Below, one piece after another: positions 4,214 through 45,144 of a stretch of DNA of 46,510 nucleotides. The position numbers were made by a program, and so were the translations under genes. Source of the DNA: Oscillospiraceae bacterium (GTDB taxonomy: Bacteria; Bacillota; Clostridia; Oscillospirales; Acutalibacteraceae). The stretch is taken from contig JALEQX010000008.1 of assembly GCA_022763825.1 (NCBI GenBank), positions 1 to 46,510 of the forward strand, given 5' to 3'. The notes beneath the pieces were generated by a model. That model was not told where the DNA came from, made no database searches, and saw only the letters and a list, made by a program, of their open reading frames with translations. Positions within the stretch are counted from its first letter, which is position 1, and each line of letters opens with the position of its first letter.

Positions 4214-4861
4214 TTATTTTACTTTATTATTTTCTTTATATTCCTTACAGATATCGTTAAGCGGGCATATACCGCACTTGGGATTTCTCGCAGAACATAT
4301 TTCCCTGCCGAAGAGCACGCATCTGTGACAGAAATCATTGCTTTCCTCCGGCGGAAGCAGAGGTCTCGTCTCCTTTTCGACCTTAAACGGGTCGCGTGTC
4401 GAAACAAGTCCCAGTCTGTTCGATATTCTTATATAATGGGTGTCGGCTACGACGGCGCCGGGCATTTTATAGACGTCGCCGGCTATCAGGTTTGCCGTCT
4501 TTCGTCCGACTCCGGGCAAACGGGTAAGTTCCTCGACCGAATCGGGAATAACTCCGCCGTACTCGTTTAAAATCATCTGAGCCATGCCGATAATATCCCT
4601 CGCTTTCTGACGGAAAAATCCGCATGAGCGTATAATATTCTCAACATCCGTTACGTCCGCCGAAGCATAATCCTCGAGCGTTTTATATTTTGAAAACAAT
4701 TCGGGCGTTATGAGATTTACCCTCGCGTCCGTGCACTGCGCCGACAGCCGTACGCTGATAAGCAGTTCAAACGGGTTGTCCGCGTTGAGCGAGCATACCG
4801 CGCCGGGATATCTGTTCTTAAGGCGTAAAACAGCCTCGTGCGCCGTTTGTTTTTTCGTCAT
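4214..4861 (-). CDS. nth: Endonuclease III (DNA glycosylase/AP lyase)
   Basis: Nth removes oxidised pyrimidines from DNA and cleaves the abasic site by beta-elimination. The helix-hairpin-helix reads LPGVGRKTANLI with the catalytic lysine at about residue 121, followed by the catalytic aspartate in ADTHYIRISNRLGL (about 140). The iron-sulphur cluster loop is intact as C-x6-C-x2-C-x5-C (Cys about 189, 196, 199 and 205). The ATG at 4859-4861 is chosen over an in-frame GTG three codons upstream because GGGAG lies 8 bases before the ATG. It is 21 bp downstream of the Ig/dockerin gene and 48 bp upstream of secA on the same strand, so one transcript is likely. At 215 residues it matches the family. 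Confidence 0.96.
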   Translation of the reverse strand: MTKKQTAHEAVLRLKNRYPGAVCSLNADNPFELLISVRLSAQCTDARVNLITPELFSKYKTLEDYASADVTDVENIIRSCGFFRQKARDIIGMAQMILNEYGGVIPDSVEELTRLPGVGRKTANLIAGDVYKMPGAVVADTHYIRISNRLGLVSTRDPFKVEKETRPLLPPEESNDFCHRCVLFGREICSARNPKCGICPLNDICKEYKENNKVK

Positions 4862-20489: not shown

Positions 20490-20520
20490 TTATATCACCG
20501 ATTATAATAAATATCAATAT

Positions 20521-20549
20521 ATAATACCACGCATTAAGAATAAAAGCAA
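20521..20549 (-). promoter_or_regulatory. Probable mnmG operon promoter (extended -10)
   Basis: On the minus strand TTGCTT (20544-20549) and TATTAT (20521-20526) are 17 bp apart with TGG just before the -10, an extended form. The predicted start site is about 25 bases before the mnmG ATG. Confidence 0.5.
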
Positions 20550-20657
20550 CAATTTACGAGGTAAATTATTGTTCACACGGCAATTGTCAACATTCGGCGC
20601 GATAGGATGTATATTTGTTATTTTGGACATTATAATATGGATTAAGTAATTTTTATG

Positions 20658-20686
20658 TTGACAAACATTTTAAAACAAATTATAAT
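20658..20686 (+). promoter_or_regulatory. Perfect consensus promoter of the abiF RNA
   Basis: TTGACA (20658-20663) and TATAAT (20681-20686) are exact consensus hexamers separated by 17 bp. Transcription should start near 20693, seven bases before the CCCGCC arm of the structured RNA. So strong a promoter directly before a short terminated RNA implies abundant RNA. Confidence 0.88.
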
Positions 20687-20692
20687 ATAGGT

Positions 20693-20754
20693 AACAGAAC
20701 CCGCCACGCATAGACATGCTTAGCATGGACGCGCAACCCGGCGGGACTTTTTTT
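20693..20754 (+). ncRNA. abiF-type structured RNA upstream of the HEPN toxin-like gene
   Basis: A nested hairpin is directly visible. The outer stem is CCCGCC (20700-20705) with GGCGGG (20740-20745). Inside are CGC (20707-20709) with GCG (20731-20733) and CATGC (20715-20719) with GCATG (20723-20727) around TTA. Seven Ts (20748-20754) follow, so the RNA can end about 20 bases before the abiF start, giving roughly 62 nt. A conserved abiF RNA motif upstream of Abi_2 genes has been reported from comparative genomics; this assignment is from memory of its position and shape. An antitoxin-like or toxin-controlling role is an inference. Confidence 0.8.
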
Positions 20755-20773
20755 AAGTTTCGGGTGAAATAAT

Positions 20774-21688
20774 TTGTACAATTATCCAAAGAATGTTTTA
20801 AACAGCGCACAATTGCTGCAAAAATGGGTCGACAAAGATATGAAAATTAAGCCAAGTGACAATGCGGAAAATGCATTACAAAATATTGGTTATTACAGAT
20901 TAAAAGGATACTGTTTTCACCTATTTGACCGAAACACAGGAAAATTCGAAAAAGATACAGATTTCAGTAATATCATAGATTTATATAATTTCGACACAGA
21001 ACTTTCGCATTTGGTTTTCGGTTATATTTCCGAAATTGAGGTTACTTTGAGAGCGCGCACGGTGAACGCTTTGCTTATATACAATGACGCGCTTATTTTA
21101 AACGACCCGTCCGTGTTTGACAACAAAGCGTTATATTGGAAAAATCAAAGTACTGTTGCAACGGAAATTGCACGTTCTGACGACGTATTTATAAAACATA
21201 ATTTCCGAAATCATGACGGAGCAATTCCTCTTTGGGCTGTCGTCGAAGTTATGTCTTTCGGCACTCTTTCAAAAATAATAAAAACAATGAAAACAGGTAC
21301 ACACAGCGCGTTCTCCGTGTTAACCGATATGTATAAATTTGACGGCACAAACGGCAAAAAAATAAAGCCGTCAAAAAAACTGTTTACTTCATGGATTCAA
21401 TCTGTTTGTATAATGAGGAATATATGTGCGCATAACAGCAGAATATATAATCGTGCGCTAAGTACAACGCCGGAACTGATAAATTCGGATAAAATCACTC
21501 CTGTACCGAAATTCAGCGGACTTTATCAGATATTATTATCTATGAAATATCTGCGCCCGTCGGATAAGTCATGGATTGATTTTACAGAAAAATTAAACGC
21601 GTTATTTAATAAGTACAGTCATGTCATTGAATATAAAAGACTCAATTTTCCGTCCGACTGGGAAACTCATATCAAAATAGAAGAATAA
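20774..21688 (+). CDS. abiF: Abi_2 (AbiF/AbiD) family abortive-infection protein with HEPN motif
   Basis: Abi_2 proteins are phage-defence proteins of the abortive-infection type, probably RNases of the HEPN superfamily. Family hallmarks are NIGYYRLKGY (about 37-46), PLWAVVEVMSFGTLSK (about 152-167) and MRNICAHNSRIYNR, which contains the HEPN RxxxxH motif Arg215-x4-His220. At 304 residues it is complete. The start is a TTG (20774-20776) with GGGTGA 7 bases upstream. The gene is AT-rich and its codon use differs from the neighbouring housekeeping genes, as expected after horizontal transfer. It lies just after a terminated structured RNA, so expression depends on read-through or processing. 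No partner protein gene is present. Confidence 0.93.
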   Translation: MYNYPKNVLNSAQLLQKWVDKDMKIKPSDNAENALQNIGYYRLKGYCFHLFDRNTGKFEKDTDFSNIIDLYNFDTELSHLVFGYISEIEVTLRARTVNALLIYNDALILNDPSVFDNKALYWKNQSTVATEIARSDDVFIKHNFRNHDGAIPLWAVVEVMSFGTLSKIIKTMKTGTHSAFSVLTDMYKFDGTNGKKIKPSKKLFTSWIQSVCIMRNICAHNSRIYNRALSTTPELINSDKITPVPKFSGLYQILLSMKYLRPSDKSWIDFTEKLNALFNKYSHVIEYKRLNFPSDWETHIKIEE

Positions 21689-21782
21689 AAAAAATTTTTT
21701 CGCATATACTGTATATGACAGAGCCGAGCAAGCCTATAAAAAAAGCTCAAACCGCTCGGACTTTCATAAAAGTAAACTGAAA

Positions 21783-21839
21783 AAACTGCAAATCATAATC
21801 TTATTCTCAATAAAAAGAGAAAGTTATGAATTGCAGTTT
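21783..21839. terminator. Bidirectional terminator between abiF and the pseudogene
   Basis: A 16-base inverted repeat with one mismatch (AAACTGCAAATCATAA at 21783-21798 and its partner at 21824-21839) has a 25-base loop. It is followed by CTTTTTATATTTTTG on the plus strand and TTTTTTC on the minus strand. A smaller hairpin CCGAGC/GCTCGG (21724-21759) precedes it. Confidence 0.65.
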
Positions 21840-22284
21840 CTTTTTATATTTTTGTCTTCCCTGTCCGATTATTCCGTCGGGAGGCTGCATTCCGCCCATA
21901 CTTCCCGGCTGTCCGCCGTTCATATTGTCTCCCGGCTGACCTACCATGTCTCCGGGCTGACCGGACGTGCTTACATTGCCGTACGCCGTCAGCGCATCGC
22001 TTAATGTTATTTCGCATACCTGACTTCCGTCGGGAGTAACCGTATAAGTTTCACCCTGTTCAAGCTCGCGTGACGAGAAAACAAAGTTTGACGTGCCGCA
22101 TGTAAGCGTATAGCAAAAGAGAGCCGAACTCATAAGGTTTATATCCACCCTCTTTCCGCTTCGACTGCGTTAAAGAAACTTGAAAGCCGTTAGTATATGA
22201 ACCGCCCGAAATCGTCACCGCTGAACCATTTTTCGCGTTCACGCTTTCGTTTACGAGCATTATAACGACCTGAACGATAGCCAT
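21840..22284 (-). pseudogene. Degenerate remnant of a DUF4353/Cthe_2159-like carbohydrate-binding protein
   Basis: Two overlapping reading frames carry pieces of one protein. The first (22284 downward) has NESVNAKNGSAVTISGGSYTNG, a beta-helix repeat like those in Cthe_2159-type cell-surface polysaccharide binders. The other frame (22148 downward) has SSRELEQGETYTVTPDGSQ, a typical C-terminal motif of that family, followed by a GQPGDMVGQPGD-rich low-complexity tail. The frame change near 22070-22130, the missing N-terminus with signal peptide, and the very short total length mark it as a remnant. The family assignment is from motif memory. Confidence 0.6.
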
Positions 22285-24310: not shown

Positions 24311-26291
24311 CGTCGGATCCCTCCTCTTTGTCTTCTTCCCCGGCTGTTTCATCATTCTCCGGATTTATATCGGTTTCGTTTACCGGGTTCAGAAGCTCTT
24401 CTATAAAACCGTCGTCATCGTCATCGTCGTCGTTATCGCCCAGCTGGGAGTCAACGATTTCTTTATACTGCGGACATGTTTCGCACAGTTCGTCGTGTCT
24501 GCCGATTCCGACGAGTTTACCCTCTGACATTACGAGAATTCGATCGGCATTCATTATCGTTCCTATACGCTGTGCTACGATTATAATGTTTTTACCGCCG
24601 AGTTCTTTGCTGATTCCCGCTCTGAGTCTTGCGTCGGTTGCAAGGTCAAGAGCCGAAAAACTGTCGTCGAAAATATAGATATCCGCGTCCCTGATAACCG
24701 CGCGCGCAATGGCAAGACGCTGTTTCTGTCCGCCGGAGAAATTATTTCCGCCCTGGGAAACCATGCTTTCCATTCCATCGGGAAGCGCCGAAACAAAGTT
24801 CTTTGCCTGAGCAACGGACAGCGCGGTTTTCATTTCCTCTTTTGACGCGCCGGGTTTACCGACTTTCAGATTATCCTCTATAGTACCGCTGAAAAGAAAC
24901 GCTTTCTGCGGAACAACGGCAATGCGCGAATGAAGCTCTGATACGGACATATCCCTTATATCAACTCCGCCGAGAGTTATTGAACCCTCCGTAACATCGT
25001 AGAGCCTCGGAATTAAGTTTATAACCGAGCTCTTACCGCTTCCTGTTATACCTATAATCGCCGTGACCTCTCCCGGACGGCATGTAAACGAAATATTCTC
25101 AAGAGACGGTTTCTGTGCCGTCGGGTATGTAAACGATACGTTATTAAACGAAAGAACGCCTCTGTTATCTTCATCGGGAACCGCAGGATTTTCCGGGTCT
25201 TTTACGGAGTTCTCCATATCGAGCAGTTCGTTTATACGTCTTGCCGAAACGTTTGCCCTGGGAATCGAAACGAAAATCGTCGCAATTGACGTTACGCCCG
25301 TTATAATAATCATCATATATGACATAAACGCCTGCAAATTGCCGACCGTCGCGTTAATCTGGTCGTAGTCAAGCGCGGGGTCAAGAGTTTCTATGACTTT
25401 ACCGCCCTTCCACATAAGCATTGCTATCGCCGTATAAAGAATCGTAACCATAAACGGCAGAAGCGAAGCCATAATTCTCGTCGCCTTAAGACTCAGCGAG
25501 GTAAGGTCAAAGTTCGTCTTTGAAAATTTTTCATCTTCCGCAGCCGTCTTGTTAAACGACCTGATAACTCTAATACCGCCTATTTTCTCTCTTACAATCT
25601 GATTTAATTTATCGGTCAGTTTCTGAACCTTTGAAAAAATCGGAACGATAAAGACAAGCATTACAATAACGAATACCAGTATTATGGGTATTACAACGCC
25701 GAGAAAGCCCATGAGCTTCGGGTTAAGACTTATCGCAAGGACAAGCCCCAGCACAAGCGTTATCGGCACGGTGAGAATAGTTCGAAGTGAATTGAGTATC
25801 ATATCCTGAACCTGCGAAACGTCGTCTGTCGTTCTCGTTATCAGCGAAGCAACGCCGATTTTATCGATATCGGTCTGTGACAGCGACTGAACCTTATAAA
25901 ACATGGTTCGTCTTAAAATATTCGCATAGCCGGATGATACTTTTGATGAAAAATACGTATTTCCTAATGATATGCCTATTGACAGGACGGAGAAAACAAT
26001 CATTATCAGACCGATAAACCGTATTGTGTCCGAACCGACCGCTATTCCAAGATCGGCTAAAAACGCGGACTGTTCTACGTTGGCATCCGACGCGCCGTTT
26101 ACCCCGTAGGTTACCATATAATTTGTAAGCATCGGCAGTATTATCTGAAACAGCGACTGCAGTATCATAAAAATTATGGAAACCCAAAAGAGTTTTGCAT
26201 ACGGTTTCAACAGCTTTAACAGCTTAAAAAGTCCCGCGGGTTTCTTTTTTTCTTTTGACTTCGGAGTCTTTTCTTTTGCTTTATCCGGCAA
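24303..26291 (-). CDS. ABC exporter half-transporter, subunit with degenerate catalytic site
   Basis: This half-transporter (662 residues) has six membrane spans (about 35-340) and an ATPase domain with Walker A GITGSGKSS and an intact signature FSGGQKQR. Its Walker B IFDDSFSALD has aspartate where the catalytic glutamate is expected, and its switch region VAQRIGTI has glutamine where the histidine is expected. Combined with the partner's ISQGQ signature this predicts one degenerate and one working ATP site, as in known heterodimeric exporters. The C-terminal 45 residues are strongly acidic with seven aspartates in a row. The TTG at 26289-26291 is chosen because GGAAG lies 9 bases upstream; another TTG two codons earlier is too close. 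Confidence 0.92.
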   Translation of the reverse strand: MPDKAKEKTPKSKEKKKPAGLFKLLKLLKPYAKLFWVSIIFMILQSLFQIILPMLTNYMVTYGVNGASDANVEQSAFLADLGIAVGSDTIRFIGLIMIVFSVLSIGISLGNTYFSSKVSSGYANILRRTMFYKVQSLSQTDIDKIGVASLITRTTDDVSQVQDMILNSLRTILTVPITLVLGLVLAISLNPKLMGFLGVVIPIILVFVIVMLVFIVPIFSKVQKLTDKLNQIVREKIGGIRVIRSFNKTAAEDEKFSKTNFDLTSLSLKATRIMASLLPFMVTILYTAIAMLMWKGGKVIETLDPALDYDQINATVGNLQAFMSYMMIIITGVTSIATIFVSIPRANVSARRINELLDMENSVKDPENPAVPDEDNRGVLSFNNVSFTYPTAQKPSLENISFTCRPGEVTAIIGITGSGKSSVINLIPRLYDVTEGSITLGGVDIRDMSVSELHSRIAVVPQKAFLFSGTIEDNLKVGKPGASKEEMKTALSVAQAKNFVSALPDGMESMVSQGGNNFSGGQKQRLAIARAVIRDADIYIFDDSFSALDLATDARLRAGISKELGGKNIIIVAQRIGTIMNADRILVMSEGKLVGIGRHDELCETCPQYKEIVDSQLGDNDDDDDDDGFIEELLNPVNETDINPENDETAGEEDKEEGSDGE

Positions 26292-26486: not shown

Positions 26487-26515
26487 TTGACAAGTTACGG
26501 GAGATTAATTATAAT
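26487..26515 (+). promoter_or_regulatory. Perfect consensus promoter of the secreted beta-helix protein
   Basis: TTGACA (26487-26492) and TATAAT (26510-26515) are separated by exactly 17 bp. With the AGGAGG site before the gene and the perfect terminator after it, strong single-gene expression is predicted. Confidence 0.87.
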
Positions 26516-26561: not shown

Positions 26562-27830
26562 ATGAAGAAAACAATATCGGTTGTTTTGGCTGTCATCATG
26601 ATACTTGCGGTTTGCCCCGTTGTCTCATTTGCCGCAGGCACATGGGCTACCGGCAGAACCATAGGTTCCGGTGAGTATGAAGAAGCTATTAATACGACAG
26701 GCACCGGCACCGTTACAATCGGCGGCACCGTAACTATGAAAAACTCACTCACCGTTACAGCTGGTGTAACCCTGAAAGTTACAGGGGGCGCTACTCTCGT
26801 TATGACCGGCGCAAACGCAAAACTCAGCATTGCAAAGAACGCAACTGTTCTCGTAGAGAACGGCGGTACCGTATTAATGCAGAGCGGATCCTCGTTTGAA
26901 AACAACGGAACCATCGATCTTAAAGCAGGTTCGAACTTCAACATTAACAGCGGTTCAAAATGCTACAACAACAGCGTTATAGATAACATTTCGAGAATAT
27001 CCGTAAACGAGAACGGTTATCTTGCTCACAGAGTTTCTCTTCCCAACAGCTTCTCGACTAATTACAGAGCAAGCGAGACCTGGAACAGAAAAGCTATGAC
27101 AATCCAGTTCTCCCCCGCATATTATCTTGACGCAGACGCTCAGTCGGATACCGAGTATCTTACTGCAAAGTACACAGCCGTACAGACTGTCGCAGGCGGA
27201 TACACCGACGTTTATGTTGAGCATAACACCAAGATTTATGTAAAGATCACTGTACCCGAAGGAGACGGCGATTTCATCGATATCGGCAGAATGAAGCTTA
27301 CAGCAGGCGGACAGACCGTAAACTGCGACAGAGGCGTATTCATGATTACTCCCCTGAACGCAATGACCGTTGACGTAATTTCCACTAAATATGCAGATAT
27401 CGTTAAAATTTTTAAAATCGAGCTTCCCAAGACCGACGGTTACTACGTTGCTCTTATGGACGGCACTGTAGGCGAAACCAACGTTGAGTTCGGCAAGACT
27501 CTTCAGTTCCACGTAGTCGTAGGCCCCGATTATGATAAGTCTACGTACTCCGTATATGTTAACACCGCAGAGCTTCAGCCTGATGAATACGGTTACTATG
27601 ACGTTACCGGACCTATCGATAACGACGGTAACATGGCTACCGCAGGCGGCGTTCAGCAGTCTCTTACCATTAAGGTTATGGGCGTTACATCCAACAAGCT
27701 CATCGGAACTATGACCGATGTAGTCGGATTCATTCAGCAGATTTTCTCTGTTATCAAGTCGATTATAGAATTCTTCGCAGACCTCTTTAAGGGCGGTAAA
27801 GGAGATTTCGACAAAATCTTCGGAACTTGA
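26562..27830 (+). CDS. Secreted beta-helix-like protein of unknown function, probably abundant
   Basis: The 422-residue protein starts with a clear signal peptide (MKKTISVVLAVIMILAVCPV, cleavage after SFA). Residues 45-140 are short hydrophobic/glycine/asparagine repeats such as VTAGVTLKVTGGATLVMTG, typical of a right-handed beta-helix. Residues 140-380 have no recognised domain. The last 35 residues (FIQQIFSVIKSIIEFFADLF and following) form a hydrophobic/amphipathic helix. Codon use is more uniform than in neighbouring accessory genes, and promoter, ribosome site and terminator are all near-ideal, which suggests high expression. The ATG at 26562 follows AGGAGG; an upstream in-frame ATG has no such site. 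Function unknown. Confidence 0.85.
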   Translation: MKKTISVVLAVIMILAVCPVVSFAAGTWATGRTIGSGEYEEAINTTGTGTVTIGGTVTMKNSLTVTAGVTLKVTGGATLVMTGANAKLSIAKNATVLVENGGTVLMQSGSSFENNGTIDLKAGSNFNINSGSKCYNNSVIDNISRISVNENGYLAHRVSLPNSFSTNYRASETWNRKAMTIQFSPAYYLDADAQSDTEYLTAKYTAVQTVAGGYTDVYVEHNTKIYVKITVPEGDGDFIDIGRMKLTAGGQTVNCDRGVFMITPLNAMTVDVISTKYADIVKIFKIELPKTDGYYVALMDGTVGETNVEFGKTLQFHVVVGPDYDKSTYSVYVNTAELQPDEYGYYDVTGPIDNDGNMATAGGVQQSLTIKVMGVTSNKLIGTMTDVVGFIQQIFSVIKSIIEFFADLFKGGKGDFDKIFGT

Positions 27831-44838: not shown

Positions 44839-45144
44839 GTTGGTTTGCCTCCTATTAGATAAGTAATGGCGGGCTTCTCGGATTTACACGCGTCCGGGTG
44901 TTTCCACCCCTCACGTTTAAAAAACCGGAAATCCATATTTCCGGGTCAGCATACTAAAATCCGTGCCGAAAGAGCCGTTTTTCCGCGTTAAGGCACAGAA
45001 AAAGCCCGTAAATCGGCATAATTTCGCCCGGTTTAAAATCGGACATACTCCGCGGAAATTCCCTGCATCGAGTGCAGCCACCTTCCGCATCATCGCATGT
45101 AATCCTGCGTAACGGGCATAGCAACCCCTATCCCATTCGCAAGC
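44839..45144 (-). promoter_or_regulatory. S10 operon leader with probable attenuator
   Basis: The predicted transcript from the promoter at 45151-45179 starts near 45144 and has about 305 untranslated bases. In order it folds into: hairpin P1 (45107-45140; GGGATAG with CTATGCCC); P2 (45052-45088; GCGGAA with TTCCGC around CTGCA/TGCAG); a stem GTGCC/GGCAC; an intrinsic terminator (44919-44944); and a GGGTG-GAAA-CACCC tetraloop hairpin (44896-44909). The sequence ATTTCCG of P2 (45053-45059) is complementary to CGGAAAT in the 5' arm of the terminator, so P2 and terminator together compete with an antiterminator. Control by an r-protein such as L4 is inference. Confidence 0.65.
44919..44944 (-). 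terminator. Intrinsic terminator inside the S10 leader
   Basis: On the minus strand CCGGAAAT and ATTTCCGG form a perfect 8-bp stem with loop ATGG, followed by six Ts. It lies about 80 bases before rpsJ and after the promoter, so it must be bypassed for the cluster to be expressed. Confidence 0.85.

Follow-up and report, generated by a model that had tools for sequence, protein, structure and literature searches.

An intact gene for an Abi_2 HEPN protein, AbiF, lies between two abiF-type hairpin RNAs in the stretch of DNA analyzed here (46,510 nt in all, hereafter the window), and it is probable that the locus constitutes an AbiF toxin and RNA-antitoxin module operating with two RNAs. The anatomy of this arrangement, its conservation, and its covariation are directly observed. 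The initial annotation had delimited a locus of one RNA and one gene at 20658..21688; the upstream RNA (RNA1) and the gene are retained, but the span was too short, since a second RNA (RNA2) follows the gene. The features, all on the forward strand, are as follows.

20658..20686, + strand: promoter of RNA1, TTGACA-17-TATAAT, agreeing with the consensus at 12 of 12 positions
20693..20754, + strand: RNA1, an abiF-type hairpin whose outer stem and seven Ts also form a terminator (R1 model, sub-threshold Rfam match, fold)
20762..20767, + strand: SD-like GGGTGA, 6 nt before the TTG, read from the sequence
20774..21688, + strand: abiF, Abi_2 HEPN protein of 304 aa with a TTG start (PF07751, PADLOC AbiD, PDB 8vz6)
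21416..21433, + strand: HEPN motif R215-N-I-C-A-H220, aligned with R210/H215 of 8vz6
21703..21710, + strand: CATATACT box, −10-like, ending 7 nt before ACAGAG; a similar box at equal spacing occurs in six relatives
21717..21765, + strand: RNA2, a second abiF-type hairpin (R1 model, sub-threshold Rfam match, fold, covariation)
21783..21853, + strand: long stem and T-rich tail, the probable terminator of RNA2 and of the abiF mRNA (RNAfold)

AbiF scores 159.7 bits with PF07751 (Abi_2; curated cut-off 25.6) and 275 bits with the PADLOC AbiD model, and it aligns over residues 4-298 with PDB entry 8vz6 (E 8e-26); a search of NCBIfam matched no model. The 8VZ6 entry represents PbAbiF (reviewed in PMC12737573), and its R210/H215 pair, an alanine change of which is said to inactivate the protein (PMC12373285), coincides in the alignment with R215 and H220 of AbiF, which bears out the intact Arg215-x4-His220 HEPN motif described initially. 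Residues R, N, C, A, and H of the motif are invariant among nine aligned proteins. The sequence L-Y-N-Y-P-K at the TTG aligns with M-Y-T-Y-P-K and M-Y-Q-Y-P-K of relatives; because the ATG starts of these relatives fall at the same point, the TTG start, proposed together with the GGGTGA element, is supported. The gene is AT-rich, as had been noted, with 34.9% G+C over 20500-21499 versus 47-50% in mnmE and mnmG. It is the sole Abi_2 gene found in its genome and is situated between mnmG on one side and two ABC transporter genes on the other; in the 11 relatives examined for mnmG synteny these ABC genes do not adjoin mnmG, and in the sole other genome of the genus the sequence breaks 96 nt before mnmG. 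A peptide-pattern search of genome contigs yielded no close AbiF relatives, and relatives were reached via the RNA pattern instead.

The exact promoter reported for the locus stands: three TTGACA-17-TATAAT sites occur in the window versus 0.00 in shuffles, and TTGACA precedes RNA1 at this locus as well as in six of six close relatives. ACAGAA comes seven nucleotides after the −10 box and leads via CCCGCC, A, and CGC into a loop of 21 bases that holds a small internal hairpin; GCG, the bulge CAACCC, GGCGGG, AC, and seven Ts (20748-20754) follow. The outer stem pairs 20700-20705 with 20740-20745, the inner stem 20707-20709 with 20731-20733. The nested hairpin ending in seven Ts was read correctly; its folding energy is −18.3 kcal/mol (z −2.9), a level that 2 of 200 shuffles reach.

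The naming of RNA1 after the abiF RNA motif fared less well in the Infernal check with the Rfam abiF model that had been suggested for it: no match was obtained at the gathering score, and with a permissive setting RF03085, although the best match, stayed at 26.5 bits where the cut-off asks for 37 (E 0.0071 over 251 bases). RNA2 reached 31.0 bits (E 5.4e-4), also below the cut-off. Both RNAs are therefore termed abiF-type instead of being counted as RF03085 members, and the family call relies on a covariance model of our own, R1, with which RNA1 attains 48.6 bits (20693-20752) and RNA2 34.8 bits. R1 was built from 16 AbiF-linked RNAs of other genomes, this locus being excluded: 14 rows come from 34 pattern matches with Abi_2 downstream (among the matches listed), and L025 and L045 were added; RNA1 of two close relatives (L025, L088) is included, and no RNA2. 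In its alignment 144 of 144 pair cells are standard, four pairs vary at both positions, and the covariation of 0.259 compares with 0.080 in shuffles. Both RNAs show the outer stem, the inner 3-bp stem, the six-base bulge, and the adjacent Abi_2 gene that define the type.

In 295 genomes of the order, plain terminators score up to about 32 bits with R1. Nine matches reach at least 30 bits; two of these are the present locus, five carry an abiF-type core (L280, L281, L283, L284, L285), and L286, which scores 32.3 bits, is a plain terminator (eight of the nine were inspected). An Abi_2 gene within 1.5 kb accompanies only L280 among the five. Eleven inspected matches of 20-28 bits (L287, L288, L290-L298) are mostly plain hairpins or palindromes, and the 16.3 bits of a third match in the window, at 26226-26247, were taken for noise. 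Approached from the protein, the 67 sources of Abi_2 loci divide into 23 in which R1 has a match of at least 24 bits and 44 in which it has none, in a mostly class-wide sample whose unmatched members include some short flanks; some AbiF proteins thus appear to lack a recognizable RNA. Of the 23 matched sources, 22 have a run of at least four Ts no more than about 19 nt from the stem, and only 6 have one of at least five; the seven Ts of RNA1 stand at the strong end of this range. Many of the 23 have the bulge GACCA or TACCA instead of CAAAT, a form of the RNA also seen before Abi_2 genes of other Clostridia (L280:1501-1550, L006, L014, and similar).

Several abiF-type RNAs occur in other settings. 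At L064:1844-1893 (− strand; the same place as L005 and L281), an RNA that exceeds the Rfam cut-off (39.6 bits; R1 49.9) precedes a gene with a SocA/Panacea antitoxin domain (PF13274) and a second gene without a Pfam match, and no Abi_2 frame lies within 3.5 kb. Two further cores without Abi_2 nearby, one beside an integrase-like gene (L283:1501-1551) and one between HNH- and terminase-like frames (L285:1501-1549), the genes being named by eye, are likely to belong to mobile elements. At L117:2770-2831 and L127:2729-2783 (both − strand), a second abiF-type RNA stands upstream of the first, in tandem as in RCd22.

RNA2 begins 28 nt past the abiF stop codon. Its outer stem (21724-21729/21754-21759) and inner stem (21731-21733/21745-21747) flank the bulge CAAACC, and its fold has a z of −3.4. 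The 27-50 nt that separate RNA2 from the stop codon in all seven loci of the clade would fit an alternative in which RNA2 has no separate role, being just the 3′ terminus of the abiF message or a degenerate RNA1 copy; so would the lack of a −35 element, TTGACA being absent upstream of the CATATACT box. This explanation is unlikely, since the box stands at the same spacing from ACAGAG as that found at RNA1 and RNA2 has a separate terminator on its 3′ side. Only three Ts follow the RNA2 stem itself; a terminator-like hairpin lies 3′ of RNA2 in six of six relatives by a simple rule, which is negative at this locus, where the fold gives the long stem and T-rich tail. The stem changes are, moreover, compensated: in an alignment of eight rows, the doubtful L027 among them, 93.1% of cells pair, four pairs vary on both sides, and covariation is 0.373 versus 0.154 (0 of 500 shuffles). 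The downstream match of L027 (18.2 bits) has a different bulge and was not counted as RNA2. Finally, the core of RNA2, AAGC..GCTCAAA, is the general form of the family, whereas RNA1 of its own clade mostly has ACGC..GCGCAACCC; RNA2 is therefore not a recent copy of RNA1.

The arrangement, with RNA2 27-50 nt past the stop, is common to L025, L088, L093, L140, L155, and L178, whose AbiF proteins are 47-61% identical to this one. In a survey of 60 RNA1-bearing loci, 53 of them with an Abi_2 reading frame, the RNA2 pattern followed the gene in the seven loci closest by protein, this locus included, and in one of the 46 more distant ones (L123, without the outer stem), several of which are truncated in the gene or extend hardly at all beyond it (e.g., L045, L107, L126, L110, L084). 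The survey left out the near-identical L007, L008, L009, and L011 and the weak L033 and L035, and L036 and L038 were represented by longer copies. RNA2 was found neither in L177, the next closest intact locus, nor in L319 (45% identity, probably the same type). A viral contig, L322, has an R1 match of 22.5 bits, a score within noise on its own, 27 nt past the stop with a similar box, core, and terminator; its protein match begins at residue 64, and it has no RNA1 match. L321 offers just 3 nt of sequence beyond its matched part. In L084 (pattern match 4550-4603, − strand) the abiF frame is shortened to 372 nt, and RNA1 and a more distant RNA2-like stretch are present.

An AbiF toxin paired with an RNA antitoxin is a known system, and the pairing of an RNA antitoxin with an RNase toxin proposed initially was right, if no longer new: RCd22 of Clostridioides difficile binds and neutralizes the homologous AbiFCd (PMC12373285), and the same is proposed for this locus. 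In homologues, toxicity of AbiF depends on the HEPN residues, and the upstream RNA cuts expression in cis by termination and neutralizes the protein in trans by binding (PMC12373285). AbiF forms a dimer to which two RNAs, or two motifs of an RNA, bind (PMC12373285; PMC12737573), with one RNA per monomer in PbAbiF (PMC12737573). By analogy with these homologues, AbiF of the present locus would be a toxic RNase that takes part in phage defense.

In the mechanism that we propose, the strong promoter would drive synthesis of RNA1, the hairpin of which would serve both as the AbiF-binding element and as the terminator. Most transcripts would end as an RNA of about 60 nt and few would read through, giving little AbiF; by acting as its own terminator, RNA1 would keep the RNA in excess of the toxin. 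RNA2, presumably transcribed from its own −10 box and ended by its own terminator, would supply a second AbiF-binding hairpin, which would also be contained in the 3′ part of the read-through abiF mRNA. AbiF would be a HEPN dimer kept inactive by one RNA per subunit. A shortage of RNA, for instance when a phage shuts off host transcription, would leave free AbiF to cut RNA and stop growth; the trigger is probably the loss of the short RNAs once host transcription ceases.

Two other functions of the RNAs have to be weighed. RNA1 by itself makes a good terminator and RCd22 does reduce expression in cis via termination (PMC12373285), as would be expected if RNA1 were an attenuator only, stopping transcription in cis without binding AbiF; this is highly unlikely given that the inner stem and the CAA bulge, neither of which termination needs, are conserved and that RCd22 works in trans by binding the protein (PMC12373285). 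The second possibility, that the RNAs are guides directing AbiF to target RNAs in a Cas13-like manner, derives from the grouping of AbiD/F with the HEPN domains of Cas13an (PMC12165695), which also agrees with the ancestral link between Abi_2 proteins and Cas13 drawn at the outset. Its chances are very slim: the most conserved part of the RNA is paired or bulge, no variable guide-like segment was seen, the apical loop is variable yet short in most abiF-type RNAs, and AbiFr is described as an antitoxin (PMC12737573). We thus favor the antitoxin role. AbiF and its RNA have been proposed as forerunners of Cas13 and its guide, so that how many RNAs a protein has, and where they lie, bears on this question, and a clade with two differently built flanking RNAs offers a naturally occurring example of two RNAs for a single HEPN dimer.

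The locus shares several features with known systems. Like RCd22/AbiFCd (C. difficile prophage phi027 and phage phiC2), it has an abiF RNA before an Abi_2 HEPN gene, a SigA-type promoter, termination before the gene, and the R-N-x-C-A-H motif (PMC12373285). RCd22, however, consists of two tandem motifs upstream with a separate terminator (PMC12373285), whereas here one upstream motif is its own terminator and one motif lies downstream. PbAbiF/AbiFr (8vz6) likewise combines an Abi_2 HEPN protein with an aligned catalytic pair and a single-motif RNA per subunit (PMC12737573); it differs in that PbAbiF is a Prevotellaceae protein, and the available text of PMC12373285 and PMC12737573 mentions no downstream RNA for it. 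In the type III toxin-antitoxin system ToxIN, too, an RNA antitoxin precedes an RNase gene, as is proposed for this locus. A key feature of type III is an antitoxin of tandem repeats upstream of the toxin (PMC12373285); the present locus, with one motif on either side of its gene, would work like type III but is not filed as a classical member. The flanking two-RNA layout was not found in the Results and Discussion of PMC12373285 or in the accessible parts of the other papers cited here; the Cell 2025 and 2017 motif papers may mention the layout or phage copies.

Phages carry abiF-type RNAs as well, mostly without the toxin. Abi_2 was absent from 44 of the 47 RNA-bearing viral records searched, that is, from 10 of 11 phage records (the exception, phiC2, had been selected for carrying the gene) and from 34 of 36 viral contigs, which are often fragments and include several near-duplicates. 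Among the matches listed, Abi_2 lay downstream of 28 of 36 unique inner-stem motifs from genomes versus 2 of 26 from viral contigs (Fisher p 2.4e-8). BLAST of one toxin-less RNA against phage records returned 75 matches, of which 10 phages were examined: Aeromonas PZL-Ah8 and T7-Ah; Salicola CGphi29; Synechococcus S-SZBM1 and S-CREM1; Acinetobacter Acj61; Mycobacterium Thibault, Douge, and Lolly9; and Arthrobacter Mimi. R1 gives their RNAs 21.9 to 48.0 bits, the lowest being Mimi, a partial match within noise. An alignment of 15 rows (nine of the 10 phages, without Mimi, and six chosen contigs) has 97.3% of cells paired, five pairs varying on both sides, and covariation of 0.356 versus 0.112 (0 of 500 shuffles). 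The exact 22-base core occurs in 110 viral stretches, with Abi_2 in 2 of the 110 loci; outer stems of at least five pairs surround 63 of 80 cores, whereas 200 partner shuffles averaged 23.8 and never exceeded 31, and under a stricter rule that allows no innermost mismatch 25 of 78 cores have at least five pairs versus 4.7% in partner shuffles. In two T7-like Aeromonas phages (L248:805-853, L252:797-845) the RNA sits between the connector and the scaffold gene.

These toxin-less RNAs are putative antitoxin decoys, a reading that is possible and has a precedent in the pseudo-ToxI of phage PhiTE, a phage-borne antitoxin RNA that provides an escape route (PMC3475682). Alternatively, they may have another role, such as regulation inside tRNA clusters. 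In 6 of the 10 examined phages a tRNA gene, annotated or predicted, is found no more than 300 nt from the RNA; at a limit of 500 nt the count is 5 of 29 for the viral contigs scanned and 34 of 78 for the cores with distinct flanks, the last against 13% for positions drawn at random from these loci (binomial p 3e-11, related phages not being independent). Unlike ToxI, in which short repeats are arrayed and fold into pseudoknots (PMC12373285), the phage abiF-type RNAs seen here are single hairpins, often near tRNA genes. The cyanophage S-CREM1, whose record contains no Abi_2, has in its tRNA cluster an Rfam abiF RNA of 51.6 bits (PMC9964418), which its authors regard as conserved and likely functional, a remark taken up again in PMC12197685; the accessible text of PMC9964418 and PMC12197685 offers no decoy reading, and none was recognized in the parts consulted of the openly licensed literature.

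The decoy reading may be extended to an arms race in which unrelated phages—T7-like Aeromonas phages, cyanophages, an Acinetobacter T4-like phage, Mycobacterium/Arthrobacter phages, and many metagenomic ones—carry a free-standing decoy antitoxin RNA, often in or beside clusters of tRNA genes, that would keep the AbiF of the host inactive, and hosts like the present one run two differently built RNAs around their toxin gene, perhaps in response. We put this forward tentatively, at somewhat less than even chances; its phage part is independent of the window itself. If true, the decoys would constitute a widespread, easily tested RNA-based counter-defense and would account for unannotated conserved elements in well-studied phages. 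A region of phage sk1 reportedly protects phage 712 from AbiF, to judge by an article title. In sk1 (L247) a relaxed scan gave no convincing hairpin, and R1, the E-values of which are rough, found no match up to E 10.

Elsewhere in the window, an S10-Clostridia ribosomal protein leader lies at 45024-45101 (− strand; Rfam, 41.3 bits, above the cut-off); together with the searches for relatives, it indicates a genome of the Clostridia. Another exact TTGACA-17-TATAAT promoter (26487-26515, + strand) is followed by GGAGG and, at 26563, by the ATG of a reading frame that begins like a secreted protein.
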